From: a virus | Length of the DNA stretch: 24,795 bases | IMG/VR virus record: IMGVR_UViG_3300017752_000151 | Coordinates: 1 to 24,795 of that record | Direction: 5' to 3' (one strand) | Shown here: positions 8,700-22,232 of the stretch, one piece after another | Layout of the letters: every line of letters begins with the position of its first letter | Position numbering within the stretch: the stretch's first letter is position 1 | Made by a program: the position numbers and the translations under genes | The notes under the pieces: generated by a model | Seen by the model: the letters and a program-made list of their open reading frames with translations, nothing else | What the model was told of the DNA's origin: nothing | The model's database searches: none

Positions 8700-9566
8700 A
8701 TGGCAACTTGGAAAAAGATAATAGTATCAGGGTCTTCGGCTAACCTAGCCAACTTACAAGTAGACTCTCTTTCGTCCGGTGTAGTAACTGGAGCATCAGG
8801 CAACTTAACAACCACACCTATAGCAGGTATTGGTAATATTGTTGCTACAGACGGTGCATTCGGTAACTTTAGTGGATCTTTTTCAGGTTCTTTTATAGGA
8901 GACGGCTCTCAGTTAACAGGATTAGTAACTAATCTAACCTTTAGCGGATCAGGCGCCACAGGAGGCGGTGATACTATCGATTTAAAAACAGATTCTCTCA
9001 AGTTTGAAGGTGGTAATAACTTATCAGCTACAGTAACTAACAATAAAGTTACTTATAACTTAGGATCGAGCATAGTTTCAAGTTCTGTATTAACTTCTAA
9101 CGCTCAAGGTCAAGCTGTATTAGTAACTAACGGGGTTTCTGGTTCAAATATTGATTTAGGTCTACAAACCACCGATGATGTAACGTTTAACAGTTTAAGC
9201 TTATCAGGAGATGCTGAAATAGACGGTAATCTTACAGTAAACGGTACATTAGCTTACTTAAACACCACAAATACTGAAATAAAAGACAAGTATATCCTTC
9301 TTAACTCAGGTTCAACTGATCCTGACACAGCAGGACTTGTTGTAGACCAAGGATCAGGTGCAGGAGATGCATTTTTATTCGATGCTACTGATTTAAGATG
9401 GGGTGTTAATAAAAACATTGCTGCAACCACAGGATCAGCTAATAGTGAAGCTCATATCTCTGTAGTAGTAGATGAAAATGATATAAACCACATAGATGAA
9501 GCGTATTACCAGAAAAACGGTAACATAAAAGTAGATAACACAGGTAATATTTTCATTTACTCATAA
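8700..9566 (+). CDS. Structural protein with WKK-VSGS handle
   Basis: 288 residues. It starts with MATWKKIIVSGSSANLANLQV, an N-terminal handle shared with the protein beginning at 9887. A GDGSQLTGL motif at 67-75 follows SFSGSF-type strands. Residues 177-235 contain LTVNGTLAYLNTTNTEIKDK followed by YILLNSG, AGLVVDQGSG and FLFDATDLRWGV, a block I recognise from structural proteins of cyanophages and other marine myophages. The C-terminus is short, without an evident receptor-binding domain. Likely a virion appendage subunit; whether it is tail or neck fibre cannot be told. Confidence 0.75.
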   Translation: MATWKKIIVSGSSANLANLQVDSLSSGVVTGASGNLTTTPIAGIGNIVATDGAFGNFSGSFSGSFIGDGSQLTGLVTNLTFSGSGATGGGDTIDLKTDSLKFEGGNNLSATVTNNKVTYNLGSSIVSSSVLTSNAQGQAVLVTNGVSGSNIDLGLQTTDDVTFNSLSLSGDAEIDGNLTVNGTLAYLNTTNTEIKDKYILLNSGSTDPDTAGLVVDQGSGAGDAFLFDATDLRWGVNKNIAATTGSANSEAHISVVVDENDINHIDEAYYQKNGNIKVDNTGNIFIYS

Positions 9567-9578
9567 AATAATAGTTAT

Positions 9579-9785
9579 ATGCCAGTTACGGCCAAAAAAG
9601 TTTTAAAAGGCGATGACGCCAAAGACATTATAGTAAACAAATCCATTTCTAAAAGCAATCTTACCAAAGCTGAACTTGAGTTTATACTTAATCACTTAAG
9701 AGATTCACAATATAAAGGTCATGAGTTCGAAAGATTTTATGTAGTATGGGTTAAGTTAAACTCCATGTTAGAAAAAATAAAATAG
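9579..9785 (+). CDS. Small conserved helical protein
   Basis: 68 residues, basic at the N-terminus (MPVTAKKVLKGDDAKD). The helical C-terminal pattern is LTKAELEFILNHLRDSQYKG followed by EFERFYVVWVKL. Similar short 'LT..E.EFIL..L..S.YKG' proteins occur in marine T4-like phages without known function; this statement is from memory. It differs in composition from the surrounding Ser/Gly-rich fibre genes and could be an assembly helper or fibre chaperone. A weak terminator-like hairpin follows. Confidence 0.7.
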   Translation: MPVTAKKVLKGDDAKDIIVNKSISKSNLTKAELEFILNHLRDSQYKGHEFERFYVVWVKLNSMLEKIK

Positions 9786-9792
9786 TTAGATT

Positions 9793-9808
9793 GGGCTTTA
9801 AGCCCTTT
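9793..9808 (+). terminator. Weak hairpin after small helical gene
   Basis: GGGC TTTAA GCCC stem-loop (the arms could extend to GGGCTT/AAGCCC) followed by only three T and then CCC. It is probably a partial or inefficient terminator. Confidence 0.45.
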
Positions 9809-9811
9809 CCC

Positions 9812-9818
9812 TATTTAT
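9812..9818 (+). promoter_or_regulatory. TATTTAT motif before 708-residue fibre gene
   Basis: Sits just after the weak hairpin and 68 nt before the start codon. The remaining leader contains two alternative short stems (9834-9863). Confidence 0.4.
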
Positions 9819-9833
9819 AAGAGTATATTATTG

Positions 9834-9863
9834 GCCTGAAAGGGAAGTGGGCAGGCAAACCTG
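9834..9863 (+). promoter_or_regulatory. Overlapping alternative leader stems
   Basis: GCCTG (9834-9838) can pair with CAGGC (9852-9856). CAGG (9852-9855) can instead pair with CCTG (9860-9863). The middle arm is shared, so only one stem can form at a time. The stems are only 4-5 bp, so a regulatory role is speculative. Confidence 0.2.
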
Positions 9864-9886
9864 TAACCAACCGTAATAAAGTAGAC

Positions 9887-12013
9887 ATGCCGAACTGGAA
9901 AAAACTGATTGTTAGTGGTTCTGACGCCGCTCTCAATAATCTTAATGTAACTAATGCTGTAACCGCTTCTTATTTTAAAGGAGATGGATCTGCATTAACT
10001 AATATACCAACAGCCGACGGCTTTCCTTACACAGGCTCAGCTTTAATATCAGGTTCTTTAACTGTAACAGGTTCAGTCTTAGTTTCAGGTAGCGTTACTG
10101 CTAACTCTTATATAGCTAAGAACGGTACAGGAACTCCTACTTTAACATCAGCTAATAGTATAATATTTAGCGGTTCAGAAGCAGCTATTTTTAAAGGACT
10201 GTCAATGAGACTGAATGCATTTACCAATGCTCAGACATCATCTTTGACATCTCAGAATGGTGATCTAATATTCAACTCAGACCGTAATAAAATACTTTTT
10301 TATACAGGTTCATCCTGGAAACACGTACTTGTTCAAGGAGATGCAGCTAATCTACCTGAAGGAGTAATATCAAGCTCAGCTCAAATAGATAACTTGTTCG
10401 ATATTGATGGTATCGTTTCATCTTCTGGGCAAATAACAGCATTAGGATTTATTTCACAATCTGCTGATGGATTTCCTTATACAGGATCTGCTATCATTAC
10501 AGGTTCTTTAAATGTAATAGGTCCATTAACTGCATCTAAGTTTGTAGGAGATGGTTCAGAACTTACAGGATTAACTTTTGCTCAATCAGTTACAGTAACT
10601 TCTACCTTTACTAGTTCAATAAGTACTAATGTATACCATGGATTCGATACTAGAAATATTTTAGTATCTGTTTATGATTTTAACTATGATCAAGTAATAC
10701 CAGCTCGAATAAGATTAACGGATACTAATAACGTAACAGTTGATTTTGCATCCACTACTTCTGGGCATATAGTTATAGCTAAAGGAGGACATATAGTATC
10801 CGGTACTCAAGAAGTATCAGAGTTAGCATCTTTTGCAGATACTTTTACTAATGCTACTTCCCACACAGCTACACATAACTTTAATACTAAAAATGTAGTA
10901 GTACAAGTTTATGATGAAAATGATTTTGTAATCATTCCTCAATCTATAGAACTTACTGATTTAAATACAGCAGTAATAGGATTTAGTTCACCTAAATCTG
11001 GAAATGTAGTAATAGGTAAAGCAGGACATATAGTTTCAAGCTCAGTTGACAATGCAGCAAATCTTGGAGGTCAACCTGGTACATATTATAGAAACTTTAA
11101 CAACCTAACTAATGTACCTAATGGTATTGTATCTTCATCTGACGCAATATATAATATTAGCGGTAGCATACTACCTTCTATAACAGAAGTATTTGATTTA
11201 GGATCTCCTACAAAAAGATGGAATGATTTATACTTAAGTGGATCAACTATCTACTTAGGTGCTACAAGACTTTCTTCAACTGGTAACCAGAATCTTGAAC
11301 TAAGAAACCATACTAATCAAAGAACAAACCTTATATTAGATGAACTGCATGTTGGAAAAACAACAGATACATCTATAATATTAAGACAGCATTCAGGAAG
11401 TTTATTAATACATCAATCAGGTTCTTCAAGTCCAATGCAAGTAGATTCTACTGCATCTTATGCATTAACAGCTTCCTACGCATTAAATGCAGCAGCTGGA
11501 GGTAGTGGAGCAGGATTTCCATTTAGCGGATCAGCTGTAATAACTGGTTCACTAACTGTAACTGAAGGAGGATTCGTTGGTGATGGTTCTGGATTAACAG
11601 GTGTAACAGCAACGATTGCTGAAACTGCTACTTTAGTAGATAACTTTACAAATGTTACATCACACCTTGCTACTCATAACTTTAATACTAAAAATGTATT
11701 AGTACAGGTATATAACGATAGTGATGAAGTGATTATACCATCAAGTATAAGCACTCCTAGCTTGTCGACAACCAGAGTTACATTCCCTGAAGCAGTAACA
11801 GGTAGAGTGGTAATAGCTAAAGGAGGACATATAGTATCAGGCTCAGGAGGAGGTGGAGGAGGCGGTTCTTCTGAACTATTAATGCACCCACAAACTCTTA
11901 ATAGTGATATAGTAGTACCAGATTTTTACAATGCACACTTGATTGGACCAATAGGACTTAATATGACATTAACGATTGGTGGCAGTTCAGTATTGAGTAT
12001 ATTAGAAAATTAA
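9887..12013 (+). CDS. Large modular fibre protein with three 67-aa repeats
   Basis: 708 residues. The N-terminus MPNWKKLIVSGSDAALNNL matches the handle of the protein at 8700. It then alternates three kinds of module. 'GFP-Y/F-T/S-GSA..TGSL' strands start at about 45, 195 and 543. GDGSxLTx motifs lie at 32-39, 221-228 and 565-572. Copies of a 67-residue beta-rich repeat lie at about 240-306, 319-385 and 586-652. SSSAQI/SSSGQI motifs occur at 162-183. Residues 425-535 hold a domain with FDLGSPTKRWNDLYLSG (widespread in phage fibres) and Ala/Ser/Tyr repeats. A seven-glycine linker at 654-660 precedes a short hydrophobic C-terminal tip. Probably a long tail fibre or similar host-contact protein; it is a paralogue of the protein at 18422. 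Confidence 0.8.
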   Translation: MPNWKKLIVSGSDAALNNLNVTNAVTASYFKGDGSALTNIPTADGFPYTGSALISGSLTVTGSVLVSGSVTANSYIAKNGTGTPTLTSANSIIFSGSEAAIFKGLSMRLNAFTNAQTSSLTSQNGDLIFNSDRNKILFYTGSSWKHVLVQGDAANLPEGVISSSAQIDNLFDIDGIVSSSGQITALGFISQSADGFPYTGSAIITGSLNVIGPLTASKFVGDGSELTGLTFAQSVTVTSTFTSSISTNVYHGFDTRNILVSVYDFNYDQVIPARIRLTDTNNVTVDFASTTSGHIVIAKGGHIVSGTQEVSELASFADTFTNATSHTATHNFNTKNVVVQVYDENDFVIIPQSIELTDLNTAVIGFSSPKSGNVVIGKAGHIVSSSVDNAANLGGQPGTYYRNFNNLTNVPNGIVSSSDAIYNISGSILPSITEVFDLGSPTKRWNDLYLSGSTIYLGATRLSSTGNQNLELRNHTNQRTNLILDELHVGKTTDTSIILRQHSGSLLIHQSGSSSPMQVDSTASYALTASYALNAAAGGSGAGFPFSGSAVITGSLTVTEGGFVGDGSGLTGVTATIAETATLVDNFTNVTSHLATHNFNTKNVLVQVYNDSDEVIIPSSISTPSLSTTRVTFPEAVTGRVVIAKGGHIVSGSGGGGGGGSSELLMHPQTLNSDIVVPDFYNAHLIGPIGLNMTLTIGGSSVLSILEN
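10604..10804 (+). repeat. 67-residue beta repeat, copy 1
   Basis: Residues 240-306 of the 708-residue protein. Pattern: TFTS, HGFDTRNILVSVYD, VIPARIRLTD, FASTTSGHIVIAKGGHIVSG. It is the most divergent copy in the N-terminal half of the module. Confidence 0.75.
10841..11041 (+). repeat. 67-residue beta repeat, copy 2
   Basis: Residues 319-385. Pattern: TFTNATSH, HNFNTKNVVVQVYDEND, IIPQSIELTD, SGNVVIGKAGHIVSS. It follows copy 1 after 12 residues. Confidence 0.75.
11642..11842 (+). repeat. 67-residue beta repeat, copy 3
   Basis: Residues 586-652. Pattern: NFTNVTSH, HNFNTKNVLVQVYNDSD, IIPSSI, TGRVVIAKGGHIVSGS. It is separated from copy 2 by about 200 residues and followed by the glycine linker. 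Confidence 0.75.
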
Positions 12014-12016
12014 ACA

Positions 12017-12023
12017 TATTTAT
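12017..12023 (+). promoter_or_regulatory. TATTTAT motif, 5 nt before start
   Basis: In a 15-nt gap, with only 5 nt between motif and ATG. It overlaps the palindrome TTTATATAAA. If it were a -10 element, the transcript would begin at or inside the start codon. Confidence 0.35.
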
Positions 12024-12028
12024 ATAAA

Positions 12029-12571
12029 ATGAGTATATTAAAAGTAAATACCATCCAGCCTTTCTCAGGTAATAAAGTTTCCATTACAGGAAACTCAGTT
12101 ATCTCTGGGTCATTTTCTGGATCTTTCGAAGGAGCATTTGATGGTACAGTAGAGTTTGTTGATCTAACAGGAAAGCCTACTCTAATATCTGGCTCAAATC
12201 AACTAGCAGGAACATCAATAGACGGAGACTTAACAGTTAACTCAACATTTAATATACTCTCTGCATCTCATGATTATCATCAAAACACAGATGCTGATAC
12301 AGGAACTGAAACGGTAGCGACATTAACAACCGGTTCTCACTCCTCAGCATTTTTTGATTACGTAGTAAGTGATGGAACGAATAGTAGAGCAGGAACAGTA
12401 ATGACTGCTTGGATTGGAACAAATATAACATATGCTGATACATCAACAGCAGATATAGGAAATACCGGTGATGTAGATTTAACTACTACAATAAGCGGTG
12501 CAAACGTACTCTTACAGGTAACTACTACTTCTGACAACTGGAATGTAAAAGCAGTAAGTAGGTTGCTTTAA
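12029..12571 (+). CDS. Fibre-like protein, MSILKVNTIQPFSG type
   Basis: 180 residues. The first 15 residues (MSILKVNTIQPFSG) are a recurrent start of marine phage fibre proteins, presumably an attachment segment. 'SGSFSGSFEGAF' strands and a DLTGKPTLISGSNQ element follow. The C-terminal domain, from about residue 95 (HSSAFFDYVVSDGTNSRAGT, then IGNTGDVDLTTTISGANVLL and WNVKAVSRLL), is a beta-sandwich type found at the distal ends of marine phage structural proteins. Probable short appendage protein with a compact distal domain. Confidence 0.75.
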   Translation: MSILKVNTIQPFSGNKVSITGNSVISGSFSGSFEGAFDGTVEFVDLTGKPTLISGSNQLAGTSIDGDLTVNSTFNILSASHDYHQNTDADTGTETVATLTTGSHSSAFFDYVVSDGTNSRAGTVMTAWIGTNITYADTSTADIGNTGDVDLTTTISGANVLLQVTTTSDNWNVKAVSRLL

Positions 12572-12579
12572 TATTGAAA

Positions 12580-12586
12580 TATTTAT
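12580..12586 (+). promoter_or_regulatory. TATTTAT motif inside 12-bp palindrome
   Basis: Four nt before the next ATG. It extends to the perfect palindrome TATTTATAAATA (12580-12591), which contains the T4 late promoter octamer TATAAATA on the + strand, overlapping the first base of the start codon. Confidence 0.4.
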
Positions 12587-12590
12587 AAAT

Positions 12591-12782
12591 ATGGCAAATC
12601 AAGTAGTACTAAGAAACGGGTTTACATCAATGCAAGATTCATTTGTAACAGGATCTTTGACTTCAACTGCAACGGTTGAAGGAAATATAGTAAACGCAAG
12701 AACAAACTTAACACAAGGAGGAGCAGACCAAACATTTGTAACAGATGGATTGGCAGCAGCTTTCGCAATAGCATTAGGATAA
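12591..12782 (+). CDS. Very small structural-type protein
   Basis: 63 residues, not recognised as a family. The composition (Ser/Thr/Gly/Ala, 'FVTGSLTSTATVEGN', 'LTQGGADQTFVTDGLAAAFAIALG') matches the neighbouring fibre genes, and the short alanine-rich C-terminal end is hydrophobic. It has its own motif-bearing gap on the left and 14 nt to the large gene on the right. It may be a fibre tip, a decoration peptide or a remnant of a longer fibre gene. Confidence 0.6.
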   Translation: MANQVVLRNGFTSMQDSFVTGSLTSTATVEGNIVNARTNLTQGGADQTFVTDGLAAAFAIALG

Positions 12783-12796
12783 AATAATATAATAAG

Positions 12797-15700
12797 ATGG
12801 CAAAATCGTTAGTAAATCACTATAGTGTAGACAGAGTCAATAACTCAATTTCCATTGAGAATAACGTTAGACCTGAAAGACTATTACTTATCTCAGATGT
12901 AGATAATAATAGAATACTCTACAACTTCGCTGTATCTGGATCAGGGATAACTTCCTCCTCTTTTGATAGAGTAACAGAATACACTAAATTCTTTATGCAG
13001 AAAAACCTGACTACCTTAGGTATAGATTCAGGTTCTAAACTGCAAATTTTTATAGAAAAGGATCATCAAGAAATAACACTAGATGAGACATATGTAGATC
13101 CGGTAAGTAAGATTAGAGTATCAAATCCGGAAAACCTTATTGATACTGACTTTGAATACGGACTTCAATCAACAAAATGGGAAACAGTAGAGTTATCTAA
13201 TAACGTGCCATCCTACTATATCTCAGATGCTGATTATGGAGTTAGTGGAGTAGTTCAAGTATCTTCAAAAGCAAACTCTGATATTATTACTGTTAGTACT
13301 ACTAATCCTCACAGGTTAGTTCAAGGTACTCCTTTAGATATAAGAGGGTTAAACTCACAAACAGCAGAAGGTAAATACTTAATCCAGACTGTAGTTGATG
13401 ATACTACATTTACTTACAAGTCTAGAGCTAGTCAAGGATCAACAGGTAGATTAGACGGTACATACACAGTTATTACTCCAGGACAGTTTTATGCTGGTTC
13501 TCAAATACCATTTGATAAAACCGCAGGTATAACAAGTGATGAAGCAGTTCAATCAACTGTAACAGTAACAACACCAAACGAACATGGATTTGTTTCTCAA
13601 TCCAACTTTTACTTAGTTAACTCTGTTTCTCCAAAAGTTCTCCAACTGGAAAATACTTCTGCAACAGCACCTGACGGTTTTCCATATGTAGATCCTGATA
13701 ATACAGTTCAAAGTGTTTTAAGAGCAGATGGCTCAAACACAGAAACTAAACAAATGAAATCTACTTATTCATTTAAGTTTAAGGCATCAGGAGTAGATGT
13801 TTCTAGTAATAAAATACTTTGGTCTAACAGTGACTTACGAGTTAATGACTGTATTTTATATGCACCTGCACAGGCAGACTCTCCTATTGGAGGTTTAGAA
13901 AGATTTCAACAGTACTATATTTCTTCTGTTGATGCATCAGGTATAACATTATCTACTACGTATAATGGATCAACAATAAACTTTACATCAGCAGGTACAT
14001 ATACCCACGGTAAAGGAAGTGTTCATTTATGTTATGAGGTTTACTATATGGATAGACCATATAATAATCCTAACAATAGATACTTTACTAGAAAATACTG
14101 GACAGGAACAGGATCAGGATGGGATAGAACAGCTGAAGCTGGATATTATAATGGTAACTACTGGGGTATAGGTAATACCCAACCCGAAGGAATCGCTTTC
14201 TTCTCACCAGTAGGTTCAAACTACACATCCTATGTAATGTCTCAACCATTTTATTCATCTGGTAGAAACTCGACATGTCAAATGCCTGAAGGAACGCATG
14301 CTAACCAAGCTAACTTCTTAGAAGACTGGACAATGTACAAACCGTACAGTAGATGTAATCCTAATAGCTATAGTCACTACGGTAATAGTTACATGCAAAT
14401 ATACTATTCATGGAGTGCTAGATGGAGTAACTATGCTTACACCACAGCCAACAGAAACGTATTCTATATACTACTGGAACAAGATCAAGAGCAAGACACC
14501 TTTTATGTAGAAAATCACGGTTTATCAGAAGGAACTACGGTTAATTTAGAAACCACTGGATCTTCTATTTACTACAGTAATCATAACGCAAGTTGGATTT
14601 CATTTAGCAACTCATCGTCAGTAGCTGATGGAGATTACACAGTAGAAGTACCTTCTAAAGATAGATTTAGATTAGTAAACGCAGATACTGGAGATAACTT
14701 CCGTATGATGAATGCGGATGGAGAGTATACATTTGTAGCTAATGTAGAAAAAGCTACAGCAAACTCATTTTATTCTGCAGAGCATGGATTATCAGATGAC
14801 GAGTCAGTAACATTTTCAGTACTGGCTGGAGGAACAATACCTACAACAGATACAGGAAGATTAACTATTAACTCTTCTAAAGATACCGGTAACGTTGATA
14901 TCTCCTGGACAGTATTTAAGAACTCATTAGAAGCTTACTTTGCTTCTAACTTATCAGGACATAAGGATATACTTATGGACGGACCAGATGCTAGAAATCC
15001 TATTCAAAATGGGGACTCCTCTGCAAACTCCACTTGGTTAAATAACTTCTTTTATGATGGTTTATATACTTACCATTACCAAAACGGAGGAGCTAGTACA
15101 GCCAATGCCGCTTCAACTTATACTTGGGGAGATGCAGTAGTAGATTTAGCTACAGGAACTAATAATGCTAGTTCAGGATTCAGTGCAAAAGGTACTAAAT
15201 ATGACTCAAATCAGACTACTAAGTTTTTTGGAGTATGTATGATGGCATCAAGAGTACTGCCTAGGAGTGGAATAGAGTTATATACTAGAACATATACCAG
15301 CTCCGGTCCAAATGATTATTCAAGATGGGCTGGCAGAAGTCATGCTGATAACTTCTATTCTGCAGGATACTATAATATAAGTAACTCTGGAGGAAGAGAC
15401 GGACACTGTCAGTTTGAGCTTGTACTATGGAATGAGAACTGGCAAACATCTAGTACAGCATATCACCAGGGGTACTTTAACAATAGTTCATCTGGATATG
15501 GATATACTTATGGAAACGAAGAAGGAAAATATGTAAAGTTCAACGCTATCTTTATGTTTGATAACGGTACATCTTTCAATAGTACTAGTTTCTACAACAT
15601 GATTGATTATTTAGTAACCGACTGGAAAACTAACTTTGCTAAACCATCGCTAACATCCGGTACTACATACAAAACTGAGGTAGTAACTAACGATCGATTC

Positions 15701-18331
15701 AGATTAAAAGATGCTAGCTCAGGTATTGAAGTGGATTTAACAAGCTTCGGTCTACCAGATTTTAACTTTGTTATTGGTAGAAATGGAGCTTCAGATGGAG
15801 CTTACACAGTATCTAATATCCCTCAATCTGATAAAATAAGCTTAAAGCTTCCTTTTAAAGTAAATAAAAGAACATTAGAGTTTGACGCATCATTTGTAAC
15901 TGCATCATCAGATTTACTAGGTATAGAAAATCACAAACTTATAGGCGGTTTACCAATGGTATATAACCCAGGCGGTAATACTCCTATCCCACCTCTAGTT
16001 TCAGGCTCTACTTATTACTCTGTAGTAAGAGATGAAACATTAATAGGGTTTGCTTCTTCTTCAACACAAGGAGCTGCTGGAGTAGTAATAGACTTAACCA
16101 ACTCAGGTTCAGGTACACATACATTAGAAGTTAACGCAATGAATGGTCAGTTCCCAGGAGAAGGAACAGTAACATTAAACAGTGGCTCTAACGTAGTATC
16201 AGGTTCTGATGATACACTATTCAAAAGATATTTTAAAGTAGGAGACACCTTTAGAATAAAGGATACATCTGAATCTCCTGCACGTCTAACTGATTATTCT
16301 ATCTCTGCTATAGCTGATGATAATAATATGGTGCTAGGTTCAGTATCTCCTTACGATACTAACCAAACAAAATATTTTGTACAAACTCAACTTTATGCTA
16401 GACCAGATGGTACGTTCTTACACAGACCATTTGATGGTGGTGTAGAGATTACAGCAGGTACTGCTCCATTCTCACAGATAGTAAGACAGACTAGAAAATA
16501 CTTTAGATACCAATCTGGTAAAGGTATACAGACATCACTTGCTATTAACTTTAATCCACCAGTATTATTCCAACAGTTGTTCTCTAGCGGTTCTACTGCA
16601 TTTGTAGAAACTAAATACCCTCACAGGTTAAATGTTAATGATACTATTAATGTAATAGATGTAGATGATAATGTATTTAATGGAAGAAAAACAGTAGATA
16701 ATATTGTCGATGAGTTTAACTTTTCTTACGATTTAAGCGGAAGTATTCCTCAAACATCTATTCCTGGAGGATTAGGTCAGTTTAATATTGAAGGTTGGGA
16801 AAATAGTGTAGTAAGAGCAGGAATGTTTGACTTTCAAAATGGATTCTTTTATGAATATGACGGACAACAGCTATATGCAGTTAGAAGATCATCAACTCAA
16901 CAAATATCAGGAACTGCTACTGTTAACTATAACTCTAATCTAGTAACTGGTCATAAATCTAACTTTACTGGTCAACTTAATGAAGGAGTAGATATTGTAA
17001 TCAGAGGTCAAACTTATAAAGTAGTAAAAATAAAGAGTGCTACTCAACTAGTAGTTCAGCCTCAATATAAAGGAGTATCTGCTGAGGGAGTTATACTTAC
17101 TAAAACCGAAGACGTTAGGGTACCTCAATCACAATGGAATATAGATAAGGCAGACGGAACTGGTCCTTCTGGATTTGAGTTAGACTTTACTAAGATTCAA
17201 ATGGCATACATGGATTATTCATGGTATGGTGCTGGTAAAGTAAGATTTGGATTTAAAGATAGATTAGGTAAAGTAATATATGTGCATCATTTCTTACATA
17301 ATAACCGTTTGACTGAAGCATATATGAGATCAGGTAACTTACCTGCTAGATATGAAATATTTAACACAGGTAATCCTACTTATGTACCAACATTATTTCA
17401 CTGGGGTACTTCTGTAATCATGGATGGTAAGTTTGATCAAGATGATTCGTATCTATTTACTGCATCATCTAAATCATTATCATTTACGAATGGTCAAACG
17501 TTATCTGCTACAACTACCAGTAGCTCTCAAACAATAAGATTGTATGATAGAAACTCTAGAACATACAACTGGTATGTAAGAATACCTTTTTCAACAACTG
17601 ATGATTCTAAATTCTCAACAGGTGTAAAACTTTCAGCTCCAGGTACACAGTTAAATGGACAAGAAGTAACCTATACTGAATACTCAGGTAGTACATTCTT
17701 TATCTACATTTTATTTGGTACAAGCTCAGTGTATTACGCACGACCTTCAGGTGAGTTCTCGGTAAGTAGTGGAACAGCAGTTACTATTGGAGAAGCAGCA
17801 ACAGGAACAGGAGTAAATCTTGGTACAGATACTGTACCTCTTATTACTATTAGACTTGCACCTTCAGTAGATAGTGGATTACCTGGATCATTAGGTCAGA
17901 GAGAGATTATTAATCGAATGCAGTTAATACTAAACGAGATTGGTATGATTATTACTCACGACTGTGAAGTATCATTATTACTTAATGCTGACTTATCATC
18001 AGCAAACTATGAAAATGTAACTTCACCTTCACTATCAGAACTAATCAAACACGAACAAGGAGATTCAGCATTGGGAGGAACACAAATCTTCCAGTACAGA
18101 GCTTCTGGTGGTGCTGTAAACAGTGATGGTGTACGTGGTTCAAATACATCTAACCAGAGTTTAGGAGCAATCATTGACCTTGGTAACTCAATATTAGGAG
18201 GGGATGGAACATTCCCGAACGGGCCTGATACGTTAACAGTAGCGGTTAATCTAGTTGATACGTCAGGTATTAATGCGACATCACCGTTTAACGTTTCATC
18301 TCGTATAACATGGTCAGAATCTCAAGCATAA
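12797..18331 (+). CDS. Very large virion structural protein (1844 aa)
   Basis: The largest gene. The N-terminus contains IRVSNPENLIDTDFEYGLQS followed by TKWETVEL and NNVPS, a block I recognise from very large structural proteins of cyanophages and other marine myophages. Repeated strand-turn modules of the type 'V.V.T..PHxL..G..ldI.G......G.Y.V......F.Y' occur with cores at 171-174 (PHRL), 262-265, 572-576 (ENHGL), 661-665 (AEHGL) and 1275-1278 (PHRL). Two aromatic- and Asn-rich segments (about 409-553 and 700-930) interrupt the modular backbone and look like inserted domains. Residues about 1447-1522 hold the conserved WNIDKADGTGPSG ... MDYSWYGAGKVRFGF ... HHFLHNN ... LPARYEI block. Near the C-terminus SPSLSELIKHEQGDSALGGT and FQYRASGG are also conserved. 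Likely a baseplate- or tail-attached structural protein. A terminator follows. Confidence 0.85.
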   Translation: MAKSLVNHYSVDRVNNSISIENNVRPERLLLISDVDNNRILYNFAVSGSGITSSSFDRVTEYTKFFMQKNLTTLGIDSGSKLQIFIEKDHQEITLDETYVDPVSKIRVSNPENLIDTDFEYGLQSTKWETVELSNNVPSYYISDADYGVSGVVQVSSKANSDIITVSTTNPHRLVQGTPLDIRGLNSQTAEGKYLIQTVVDDTTFTYKSRASQGSTGRLDGTYTVITPGQFYAGSQIPFDKTAGITSDEAVQSTVTVTTPNEHGFVSQSNFYLVNSVSPKVLQLENTSATAPDGFPYVDPDNTVQSVLRADGSNTETKQMKSTYSFKFKASGVDVSSNKILWSNSDLRVNDCILYAPAQADSPIGGLERFQQYYISSVDASGITLSTTYNGSTINFTSAGTYTHGKGSVHLCYEVYYMDRPYNNPNNRYFTRKYWTGTGSGWDRTAEAGYYNGNYWGIGNTQPEGIAFFSPVGSNYTSYVMSQPFYSSGRNSTCQMPEGTHANQANFLEDWTMYKPYSRCNPNSYSHYGNSYMQIYYSWSARWSNYAYTTANRNVFYILLEQDQEQDTFYVENHGLSEGTTVNLETTGSSIYYSNHNASWISFSNSSSVADGDYTVEVPSKDRFRLVNADTGDNFRMMNADGEYTFVANVEKATANSFYSAEHGLSDDESVTFSVLAGGTIPTTDTGRLTINSSKDTGNVDISWTVFKNSLEAYFASNLSGHKDILMDGPDARNPIQNGDSSANSTWLNNFFYDGLYTYHYQNGGASTANAASTYTWGDAVVDLATGTNNASSGFSAKGTKYDSNQTTKFFGVCMMASRVLPRSGIELYTRTYTSSGPNDYSRWAGRSHADNFYSAGYYNISNSGGRDGHCQFELVLWNENWQTSSTAYHQGYFNNSSSGYGYTYGNEEGKYVKFNAIFMFDNGTSFNSTSFYNMIDYLVTDWKTNFAKPSLTSGTTYKTEVVTNDRFRLKDASSGIEVDLTSFGLPDFNFVIGRNGASDGAYTVSNIPQSDKISLKLPFKVNKRTLEFDASFVTASSDLLGIENHKLIGGLPMVYNPGGNTPIPPLVSGSTYYSVVRDETLIGFASSSTQGAAGVVIDLTNSGSGTHTLEVNAMNGQFPGEGTVTLNSGSNVVSGSDDTLFKRYFKVGDTFRIKDTSESPARLTDYSISAIADDNNMVLGSVSPYDTNQTKYFVQTQLYARPDGTFLHRPFDGGVEITAGTAPFSQIVRQTRKYFRYQSGKGIQTSLAINFNPPVLFQQLFSSGSTAFVETKYPHRLNVNDTINVIDVDDNVFNGRKTVDNIVDEFNFSYDLSGSIPQTSIPGGLGQFNIEGWENSVVRAGMFDFQNGFFYEYDGQQLYAVRRSSTQQISGTATVNYNSNLVTGHKSNFTGQLNEGVDIVIRGQTYKVVKIKSATQLVVQPQYKGVSAEGVILTKTEDVRVPQSQWNIDKADGTGPSGFELDFTKIQMAYMDYSWYGAGKVRFGFKDRLGKVIYVHHFLHNNRLTEAYMRSGNLPARYEIFNTGNPTYVPTLFHWGTSVIMDGKFDQDDSYLFTASSKSLSFTNGQTLSATTTSSSQTIRLYDRNSRTYNWYVRIPFSTTDDSKFSTGVKLSAPGTQLNGQEVTYTEYSGSTFFIYILFGTSSVYYARPSGEFSVSSGTAVTIGEAATGTGVNLGTDTVPLITIRLAPSVDSGLPGSLGQREIINRMQLILNEIGMIITHDCEVSLLLNADLSSANYENVTSPSLSELIKHEQGDSALGGTQIFQYRASGGAVNSDGVRGSNTSNQSLGAIIDLGNSILGGDGTFPNGPDTLTVAVNLVDTSGINATSPFNVSSRITWSESQA

Positions 18332-18353
18332 AAGAGATTTAACTAACAGAAGA

Positions 18354-18391
18354 AAGGTAGTGATGTCTAGTATATTACTACCTTCTTTTTT
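18354..18391 (+). terminator. Intrinsic terminator after 1844-aa gene
   Basis: Stem AAGGTAGTGAT/ATTACTACCTT (one G-T pair), with a loop of about 9 nt, followed by C and six T. It closes the long structural gene. Confidence 0.8.
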
Positions 18392-18394
18392 ATC

Positions 18395-18401
18395 TATTTA
18401 T
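18395..18401 (+). promoter_or_regulatory. TATTTAT motif before 477-residue fibre gene
   Basis: Begins 3 nt after the terminator T-tract and 20 nt before the start codon, the same terminator-then-motif arrangement as at 3642-3677. Confidence 0.42.
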
Positions 18402-18421
18402 ACTAAAGAAACTTTTTATAG

Positions 18422-19855
18422 ATGAAAATATATGATGCCTCCGGTTTTGACTCAAAACTAACCGGCTCTTTTACCGGTTCATTTTATGGAGACGGTTCTA
18501 ACCTGACAGGAATAGTTACCTACACTCAATCTGAAATCTCAGGTTCATCTAACTTAGCTATATCTAACATACTAGACGGTACAACACCGGTACAATCTGC
18601 ATCTAGAGCAACTACAGCCTCTTTTGCATTAAACGCTGATTCATCAGGATTTCCTTTTAGTGGATCTGCAGATGTAACAGGATCTTTATTCGTAAGCGGA
18701 GGTAATATATCAGGAAGTTTTATTGGAGATGGATCAGGACTGACTGGTGTAACTATGCTCGAAAGTACTATTATAAGTGCTTCATTTACTAATGCTAATG
18801 AATATACCGCATCTCATAACTTAAATACTGAACAGGTACTTATTAATACCTATTTTAATGATGGCACTCAGTTTTTTCCTCAAGAAATAAAAGTATTAAA
18901 TAACTCTGCAGTAGCCTTAAAGTTTAATACTTCTACATCAGGTAGAGTAGTAATAGCTAAAGCAGGTCATTTAGTTACAGGAGCTACTCTTATAAGTGAA
19001 AATACTATTTCGGATACCTTTACTAATGCATCTGTTATAAGTACATCACATAACTTTAATACTAAAGATGTATTTGTTACTGTATATTTAGACGATGACA
19101 CTCAGATTATTCCTTCAGAAATAAAAACTACTAATGAAAATACTGTATTAGTCACTTTAGATCAAAATAGATCAGGTAGAATAGTAGTAGGTAAAGCTGG
19201 TCATATAATAAGTGGTTCGACTAATATAACAGAAACTTCTACTATTACTGATACTTTTAGTAATACAGCTACGAAAACTGTTAACCACGGATTTAATACT
19301 AAGGATATCTTGGTAAACGTATACACATCAGACGATGAAATGATTATTCCATCATCGGTTAACACAATATCTAGTGGTTCAGTCAGAATAACTTTTGATA
19401 CACCAAGATCAGGAAGAGTAGTTGTGGCTAAAGGAGGTCATTTAGTATCTGGGAGTTCAGTAGCTTCTAGTGTTGAGTTTAATAATATTTTAAACAAACC
19501 ATCATTTATTTCATCTTCAGCTCAGATAACCAGTTCTGATTTAGATATGAACGGTAATAAAGTATTATTTGCAAATGTTTACGGTGGAACTGGAGATTTA
19601 CCTTCAGCATCTACATATCACGGAATGTTTGCACACGTACATAGTACCGGTCAAGGATACTTTGCTCATGCAGGACAATGGGTAGAACTTGCCACATCAG
19701 CATCATTAAGCTCTAATACAGGTTCTTTATCAACAAAAGTTGATAACCAAAATGCTAACAGTGGAAGTATAAGTTTTTGGCAAGGAAGTCAAACAGAATA
19801 TAATGCTATTTCTTCTTCTGCTGATCCTAATACACTATACATAATAAGATCATAA
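18422..19855 (+). CDS. Modular fibre protein with three tandem 67-aa repeats
   Basis: 477 residues. The short N-terminus (MKIYDASGFDSKLTGSFTGS) lacks the WKK handle of its paralogue at 9887. GDGSxLTG motifs lie at 23-30 and 102-109, with a GFPFSGSADVTGSLFV strand between. Three copies of the 67-residue repeat follow in tandem at 121-187, 199-265 and 278-344. Next come an SSSAQI motif (364-369) and the domain LPSASTYHGMFAHVHSTGQG followed by YFAHAGQWVELA (393-424), common in cyanophage structural proteins. The end, FWQGSQTEYNAISSSADPNT followed by LYIIRS, is the widespread phage-fibre ending 'W.GTQ.EYDAI...D.NTLY.I'. Likely a host-contact fibre. The stop overlaps the next start (TAATG). Confidence 0.82.
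   Translation: MKIYDASGFDSKLTGSFTGSFYGDGSNLTGIVTYTQSEISGSSNLAISNILDGTTPVQSASRATTASFALNADSSGFPFSGSADVTGSLFVSGGNISGSFIGDGSGLTGVTMLESTIISASFTNANEYTASHNLNTEQVLINTYFNDGTQFFPQEIKVLNNSAVALKFNTSTSGRVVIAKAGHLVTGATLISENTISDTFTNASVISTSHNFNTKDVFVTVYLDDDTQIIPSEIKTTNENTVLVTLDQNRSGRIVVGKAGHIISGSTNITETSTITDTFSNTATKTVNHGFNTKDILVNVYTSDDEMIIPSSVNTISSGSVRITFDTPRSGRVVVAKGGHLVSGSSVASSVEFNNILNKPSFISSSAQITSSDLDMNGNKVLFANVYGGTGDLPSASTYHGMFAHVHSTGQGYFAHAGQWVELATSASLSSNTGSLSTKVDNQNANSGSISFWQGSQTEYNAISSSADPNTLYIIRS
18782..18982 (+). repeat. 67-residue beta repeat, copy 4
   Basis: Residues 121-187 of the 477-residue protein. Pattern: SFTNANEYTASHNLNTEQVL, FFPQEIKVL, TSGRVVIAKAGHLVTG. It is the most divergent of the three tandem copies. 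Confidence 0.72.
19016..19216 (+). repeat. 67-residue beta repeat, copy 5
   Basis: Residues 199-265. Pattern: TFTNASVISTSHNFNTKDVF, IIPSEIKTT, SGRIVVGKAGHIISG. Start-to-start spacing from copy 4 is 78 residues. Confidence 0.75.
19253..19453 (+). repeat. 67-residue beta repeat, copy 6
   Basis: Residues 278-344. Pattern: TFSNTATKTVNHGFNTKDIL, IIPSSVNTI, SGRVVVAKGGHLVSG. Start-to-start spacing from copy 5 is 79 residues. Confidence 0.75.
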
Positions 19856-20657: not shown

Positions 20658-22232
20658 ATGGAAAGAGAGTATAATGTTATTTTAAAAAAAGGAGTTGATT
20701 ACGATCAGTTTGGTAATGATATGATTACTATTACCAATAAAGATGGTATACCTAATAGAGAAATAGAAATAGCTAATGCAAGATTAGGAAGTTATAGACA
20801 AACTCATTATAATCTTACAGACGAAGAAGCAGCTGAGGTAAGAAATCATCCCAATGTATTAGAAGTAGAGATTCCACCAGAAAATAGAGATGATGTAATC
20901 ATTGGACATAATGGTAGACAATCAGGAACATTTACTAAATCTCCAGGTACTACTCAAGAACATGCAAACTACGCTCTACTTAGATCTAAATATAAAAATA
21001 ATCCATACGGAACAGGAACTGAACTTTCAGAAGACTACCTTTTTAATCTAGATGGAACTGGAGTAGATGTAGTTATTCAAGATAGTGGAATCGAAGTTAA
21101 TCATCCAGAATGGGAGGATGCCAATGGAGTTTCTAGATTACATCAAATAGATTGGGGTTCAGCATCAGGATTAGGATTTGCTCAAAGTGGAAATCATTAC
21201 AGAGATTATCATGGACATGGTACTCATGTGGCTTCTACTGTAGCTGGTAAAACATTTGGTTGGGCTAAAAATGCAAGGATATATGCACTTAAGGTATCTG
21301 GATTAGAAGGATCAGGGGATAGTGGAACAGGAATATCTACATCATATGTACATGATGCTATAAAACTTTGGCATAGAAATAAACCTATAGACCCTAAAAC
21401 TGGTTATAAAAGACCAACAATAGTAAATATGTCTTGGGGGTACTTAACAACATATTCAACTGTATCTTCTATAAACTATAGAGGTACTTCTTATACTGAT
21501 TCAACTATTAATACTGCAACATCAAGAGAAAGTAACTATGGATTAATAAATTACTATTCAGCTCAGTTTGGAACTTATGTTACGAACACTAGAATAACCT
21601 CAGTAGATACAGATGTAGAAGAGCTTATTGATGAAGGAGTACTCGTATGTATAGCAGCAGGAAATAGAAGACATAAGATAGATCTAACATCAGGTACCGA
21701 TTATGACAACTATGCAGTTACTGATAGCGGAACAAAATACTACCATAAAGGTTCATCCCCATCACAAGAAAAAGCTATTATGGTTGGTTCTTTAGATAAT
21801 AACTCATACAGTTCTACTCAAGACCAGAAATCTACATACTCAGAAACTGGACCGGCAATAGATATATGGGCTCACGGAAGCTCAATAATGGCAGCTTCAT
21901 CAAATACAAACGAAATAGGAGGATATACTTATCCCTTAAACAATAGCTACAAACAAGTAGCAATATCTGGTACATCAATGGCTACACCTCAAGTAAGTGG
22001 AGTAGCAGCATTAATAGCACAAGCTAATCCCGGTATAACACCAGCAGTATTAAAATCAGCCTTAAAAAACCAAGCTGGTTCAGCAGTATGGGATGGAGGA
22101 AATAATAACTACGATAATAATAGAAGTATACAAGGAGCACCTGCTGAAGTACTTTTCAATAAGTTCGGTAAAGTCGAAAACTGTATTGAATATTCAGGTA
22201 CCTTAGATATACCTTTAACAATAACTTTTTAA
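20658..22232 (+). CDS. Subtilisin-like serine protease (peptidase S8)
   Basis: 524 residues with a full S8 triad in order: Asp142 in VVIQDSGIEVNHPE, His187 in HGHGTHVAS, and Ser440 in GTSMATPQVSGVAAL. Asn336 in CIAAGN is the expected oxyanion-hole residue. Residues 1-72 resemble an inhibitor-I9 propeptide (strand YNVILKKG, then LTDEEAAEVRNHPNVLEVEI), which in this family folds the enzyme and is then self-cleaved. There is no signal peptide or membrane segment, so the protein is made in the cytoplasm and probably packaged in or on the virion. There is no obvious C-terminal fibre domain; the last about 50 residues (APAEVLFNKFG ... GTLDIPLTITF) are a short beta-rich extension. It lies inside the fibre cluster. 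Possible roles are cutting fibre or tail proteins during maturation, or degrading host surface protein; neither is shown by sequence. Confidence 0.93.
   Translation: MEREYNVILKKGVDYDQFGNDMITITNKDGIPNREIEIANARLGSYRQTHYNLTDEEAAEVRNHPNVLEVEIPPENRDDVIIGHNGRQSGTFTKSPGTTQEHANYALLRSKYKNNPYGTGTELSEDYLFNLDGTGVDVVIQDSGIEVNHPEWEDANGVSRLHQIDWGSASGLGFAQSGNHYRDYHGHGTHVASTVAGKTFGWAKNARIYALKVSGLEGSGDSGTGISTSYVHDAIKLWHRNKPIDPKTGYKRPTIVNMSWGYLTTYSTVSSINYRGTSYTDSTINTATSRESNYGLINYYSAQFGTYVTNTRITSVDTDVEELIDEGVLVCIAAGNRRHKIDLTSGTDYDNYAVTDSGTKYYHKGSSPSQEKAIMVGSLDNNSYSSTQDQKSTYSETGPAIDIWAHGSSIMAASSNTNEIGGYTYPLNNSYKQVAISGTSMATPQVSGVAALIAQANPGITPAVLKSALKNQAGSAVWDGGNNNYDNNRSIQGAPAEVLFNKFGKVENCIEYSGTLDIPLTITF

Follow-up and report, generated by a model that had tools for sequence, protein, structure and literature searches.

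The present work concerns a repeated domain in two genes of an uncultured T4-like phage known from the IMG/VR virus record IMGVR_UViG_3300017752_000151, all 24,795 bases of which were analysed (the window). Gene A codes for a 708-amino-acid (aa) protein and gene B for a 477-aa protein, and each carries three copies of a beta domain of about 65 residues (A1-A3 and B1-B3). We consider it probable that the repeat, a small beta domain, acts as a bead in fibre shafts; in related proteins it would also form the last domain. The fibres would be tail or baseplate fibres of a T4-like phage, assembled in a modular way. A fibre gene would then be made up of one to three units joined by a KGGH[IL]VSGS linker, preceded by a GFP[FY]xGSAxITGSL segment and a GDGSxLTG turn, and followed by ends that differ. 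The products of A and B would form trimeric fibres in which the linkers may pack against each other, the units would space or present the receptor-binding end, and whole units would be gained or lost through recombination.

The bead is proposed because a single unit is predicted to fold with confidence and because the model of B holds three equivalent units with linkers of low confidence. The role in fibres is proposed because B matches PHROG 16122 (virion structural protein) and PHROG 9729 (tail fiber protein), ends in a Phage_tail_C domain, and has units that match predicted fibre structures. The modular array is proposed because the copies take both internal and terminal positions, gene A has three units in all five genomes compared (the window and L007-L010), B has three units whereas its homologue in the nearest relative has two, and a third gene of that relative holds further copies. 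The unit looks like an ordinary, rearrangeable fibre part.

The six copies and their fold

When one copy (A3) was used as the query, all six places in the window were recovered (E 1.5e-41 to 2.9e-13), and A and B could be aligned over 248 columns with 38 % identity (E 1.3e-45); the resemblance is thus not a matter of chance. The original prediction, made from the window alone, had placed the copies at residues 240, 319 and 586 of A and at 121, 199 and 278 of B. All six are present, those starts lying 5 residues inside the profile units, and the consensus it gave agrees with the six-copy alignment. The unit boundaries in A were renumbered by 22, as the frame used in the profile search began 22 residues upstream of the start of the 708-aa protein.

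9887..12013, + strand: putative fibre protein A, 708 aa, three beta units (open reading frame, unit matches)
10589..10807, + strand: A1, residues 235-307 (profile; E 5.0e-14 with A3 as query)
10826..11044, + strand: A2, residues 314-386 (profile; E 3.9e-23 with A3 as query)
11627..11845, + strand: A3, residues 581-653 (profile; folded alone within the 81-residue query, mean predicted local distance difference test score, pLDDT, 88.8)
18422..19855, + strand: putative fibre protein B, 477 aa, three tandem beta units (open reading frame, three-unit model)
18767..18985, + strand: B1, residues 116-188 (profile; no counterpart in the nearest relative's homologue of B)
19001..19219, + strand: B2, residues 194-266 (profile)
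19238..19456, + strand: B3, residues 273-345 (profile)

The single unit was modelled with AlphaFold2 from the 81-residue query and 125 aligned copies; all models were of monomers. Its block means were 93-98 over residues 11-70, and strands were predicted at residues 8-22, 30-36, 46-51 and 54-71. In the model of B the same four-strand order appeared in each of the three units, and the linkers (182-192, 260-271 and from 340) were below 50 pLDDT. On these models the six segments are predicted to be equivalent folded units. A structural frame of this kind had been proposed originally, with structure prediction named as the means to refute it, and the prediction returned equivalent units.

Mean column entropy over 97 internal copies served as the measure of conservation. 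It was lowest in the KGGHIVSGS tail (0.79 bits), the second half of strand 4 (0.83 bits) and a second island, HN[FL]xTKN (0.88 bits), compared to 1.4-2.0 bits in strands 1-3, in the loop at 37-45 and in strand 4 over its first half. H23, P44, G65 and G73 were invariant in 97/97 copies and the histidine of KGGH was found in 95/97. The expectation that the end would be better conserved than the middle was thus borne out. The further suggestion, that the variation lies in exposed loops, was not: the HNFxTKN loop is among the conserved parts, and the variable sites lie mostly in strand 3, in the 37-45 loop and at every other position of the strands. A linker that is conserved, yet poorly predicted in a single chain, would fit a contact formed only in the assembled fibre.

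Modules of A and B

Besides the beta units, A and B have in common a GFP[FY]xGSAxITGSL segment upstream of them, which occurs four times in the window. The ends of the two proteins differ, Phage_tail_C being found in B only.

10017..10074, + strand: GFPYTGSA-type segment without a unit directly 3' (direct repeat family D3)
10467..10524, + strand: GFPYTGSA-type segment preceding A1-A2 (direct repeat family D3)
11511..11568, + strand: GFPFSGSA-type segment preceding A3 (direct repeat family D3)
18645..18702, + strand: GFPFSGSA-type segment preceding B1-B3 (direct repeat family D3)
19772..19849, + strand: Phage_tail_C domain (PF24243) at the end of B, residues 451-476 (31.0 bits, cut-off 23.7)

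Because the ends differ while the units and the upstream segment are shared, A and B are, judged by sequence, mosaics of common modules rather than simple paralogues. The term paralogues, used in the original prediction, holds for the shared modules and not for the whole proteins. The end of B also gave a weak match (E 0.28) to 6v8i, "Fiber Upper, gp68", presumably from staphylococcal phage 80alpha; this match covers only the last ~35 residues of B and leaves the beta units unmatched.

Distribution of the unit among phages

PHROG 21918 matched 124 and PHROG 16122 matched 122 of the 125 aligned copies (E ≤ 0.001). Although their profiles match the unit, these are uncharacterised or generic whole-protein families, with no named domain or repeat in their descriptions. 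The repeat of A and B had no Pfam match above cut-off; the sole such match in the two proteins is Phage_tail_C, which lies outside the repeat in B. Single copies gave weak and scattered Pfam matches (ArlS_N, Big_8, FlgD_ig and others), none of which was adopted. Among predicted viral structures there were 54 matches to the unit at E ≤ 1e-3, and the named ones among the best 50 of these include phage tail fibre, S74-peptidase and collagen-repeat proteins.

Viral contigs were scanned for the unit; 157 of 304 pattern matches were confirmed, and 80 of these loci were kept, two of them (L009 and L070) being a single contig. In the window and these 80 loci the profile had 226 hits in 123 open frames. 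Among 97 distinct frames, 36 held one full-length copy, 37 two, 19 three and one six, and 4 held fragments only; many of the contigs in this census are cut at their ends. Of 151 distinct copies, 112 were internal and 39 were the last domain before the stop codon. Most of the internal copies (88) followed a GDGSxLT-like motif, as defined by a loose pattern, 20 began no more than 12 residues after another copy, and 4 did neither. All 22 records that were searched whole carried two to seven copies. The unit is thus a general module of fibre-like genes in uncultured phages.

A widespread fibre-like phage domain, as yet without its own name, is hereby defined, and its profile can be used to annotate fibre genes of uncultured phages that are otherwise read as hypothetical. 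Proteins with one to six units form a natural series in which the evolution of fibre length and of host recognition could be studied. Among the papers listed on fibre domain repeats and shuffling, and on the cultured relative of the phage (see below), no description of the beta unit was found.

Evolution of the arrays

The copy tree was built from 51 copies and an alignment of only 73 columns, and 23 of its 47 inner branches were unresolved. Within it the A1 copies (5 rows, support 99) and the A2 copies (5 rows, support 96) of the five genomes each formed a clade and the five A3 copies a fork (84). B2 and B3 paired with the two copies of the nearest relative (support 97 and 96). Since the A copies cluster by position in five genomes, the A array is old and stable, and such clustering in the tree indicates that most copies predate the split of these genomes. 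The ratio of nonsynonymous to synonymous divergence between the window and the nearest relative was 0.06-0.27 in the five units compared, indicating purifying selection and thus no sign of strong diversification of the beads.

The nearest relative is collinear with the window over 18 kilobases (kb) at 82 %. Its B homologue lacks exactly copy 1, i.e. one period, which bears out the expected difference in copy number between relatives. The third gene of this relative carries two more copies, which fall together with the fourth and fifth units of a protein with six units at locus L055 (support 100 and 97). No close relatives were found when B1 alone was the scan query, and the full B protein as query yielded 79 loci with a single near homologue, on a contig already in the sample.

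Two observations suggest recombination. Firstly, B1 and B2 share 25 of 31 synonymous codons, compared to 15.3 expected, a value reached in 0/5000 simulations (15 pairs were tested). Secondly, in a comparison of gene A with that of the near-identical contig L007, 11 of the 20 differences lie inside A3, where 1.0 was expected, although A3 was chosen after the counts had been seen. These 11 are at 11721-11845, a twelfth follows at 11860, and only 2 of 2000 random scatterings had any window reaching the observed maximum of 12.

11721..11860, + strand: short stretch, for the most part within the second half of A3 (holds 12 of gene A's 20 differences from L007)

A donor copy for this tract was not identified in the comparison with L007. 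A second cluster of at least 10 differences from L007 lies near 8835-9011, outside the repeats.

It is quite possible, if somewhat less probable than not, that old duplication and loss account for the arrays with no recent exchange; in that case the relative would have lost B1, an old unit, and the A3 cluster would mark a local mutation hot spot. Such a history competes with the recombination step only and leaves the bead itself untouched. It agrees with the clustering by position and with B1 being the most diverged copy (nearest 44 %). Furthermore, B1 and B2 are not significantly more alike at synonymous sites than the two orthologous B2 copies (Fisher p 0.13), and A2-B1 is also raised (21 of 26 synonymous codons, 4/5000 simulations), which a duplication of B2 into B1 does not predict. 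Against it stand the excess of shared codons in B1-B2 and the concentration of differences in A3. Gene conversion was also assessed with the relative's copy as outgroup; B1 to B2 (p 0.019), A2 to B2 (0.044) and A3 to A2 (0.032) were the lowest, and none of the 16 tests stands after correction.

With these caveats, recombination is suggested for B1 and within A3, and the arrays are best seen as mostly old and stable, altered at times by whole units or short tracts. The original idea of expansion by recombination is retained to that extent, and does not extend to the old, position-wise A array.

Other possible roles of the unit

Several results weigh against a bead in a fibre shaft. The whole model of B is poor (pLDDT 59.1, predicted template modelling score 0.26). 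In the fold comparison of the unit with solved structures, 0/894 reached E ≤ 0.001, and the best structural Z was 6.0, with phage rows at 5.4 and below, a range where common arrangements fall; no solved fibre thus confirms the role. Searches of 50,697 annotated phage records with the repeat alone (tblastn) gave no match for a window copy at E ≤ 1e-3, nor for an L050 copy at E ≤ 1, and hence no cultured phage with a close form is at hand. Finally, PHROG 2647 ("head decoration") matched 69 of the 125 copies, so part of the unit family may sit on heads. In a profile search of solved structures the unit returned chance-level rows only (E ≥ 0.24). The whole of B matched 56 annotated phage records, and most of the best 40 of these covered only residues 373-422, a C-terminal piece shared with cyanophages, those matches that covered the units having E 0.1 or worse.

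The units could instead bind receptor glycans as lectin-like or BACON-like domains, their number tuning avidity, which we regard as rather unlikely. A study of crAss-like phages (PMC6949934) describes tandem BACON domains in tail-associated proteins, encoded near the tail genes and proposed to bind the Bacteroides surface, with position-wise clades taken as array stability and separate cases of domain transfer. The arrays of A and B resemble these in having tandem small beta domains and in their stability, and are close to them in kind. However, BACON (PF13004) was not among the 3 (A) and 8 (B) Pfam families found at E ≤ 1, nor among the 25 of 58 families listed for single copies. The two nearly invariant histidines would suit a binding site, but conservation is highest in turns, glycines and the linker, which do not form an obvious one, and neither A nor B has a carbohydrate-binding Pfam match above cut-off.

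Less likely still, the units would be head-decoration or neck-fibre (Hoc-like) domains that protrude from the capsid and hold surface glycans. PHROG 16122 is filed under head and packaging, and the genes follow the head genes, lying at least 6 kb downstream from that for the major head protein. The PHROG 2647 matches would point the same way, but they are weak (best 4.4e-07), B matches the tail fiber PHROG 9729 and Phage_tail_C, and related units stand at the C-terminus of proteins, as the tip of a fibre would.

It is very improbable that each bead has its own functional site around H23 and the histidine of KGGH, e.g. a three-fold metal site locking the trimer, so that half-unit exchanges such as the A3 tract would swap surfaces with the lock intact and the fibre would diversify bead by bead.

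Genomic setting

The structural cluster of the window includes a major head protein of the T4 type (phrog_138, E 2.7e-74), followed by fibre-like genes, an 1844-aa protein and a subtilase. The capsid protein matched 2498 annotated phage records, the nearest being Flavobacterium phage immuto, represented by four records (66 % along the full protein, annotated Gp23). The phage is thus T4-like and probably has a Bacteroidetes host, the host being proposed solely because of this nearest capsid. When bacterial and archaeal genomes were scanned with the alignment of the six copies, none of 98 pattern matches was confirmed, so that no host could be named from prophages. Seven further window proteins align in the head-gene locus of this phage, vB_FspM_immuto (Immutovirus), whereas the unit profile had no match at E ≤ 1 in two stretches covering 43.8 of its 160.4 kb.

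The 1844-aa protein (12797-18331) lies between A and B and had no Pfam match at E ≤ 0.01. Within its gene the divergence of the window from L007 rises from about 1 % to about 9 % (13366-14505), which suggests a mosaic breakpoint near 12.6-13.4 kb. Synonymous divergence from the nearest relative was about 0.4-0.74 over the fibre block (9453-19430), while the head genes and the region beyond the block mostly had 0.2-0.45. In the same analysis B had been paired with a different gene in L007, L008 and L010, and those rows were left out. The raised values may reflect mosaic exchange or unequal codon constraint. Over its final 97 residues (19562-19852) B is 93 % identical to the nearest relative, with low synonymous divergence (proportion of synonymous differences 0.28), the preceding units being more diverged. 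The subtilase (524 aa, 20658-22232; Peptidase_S8, E 2.4e-35) lies inside the run of fibre genes and shares 87 % identity with its homologue in the nearest relative.

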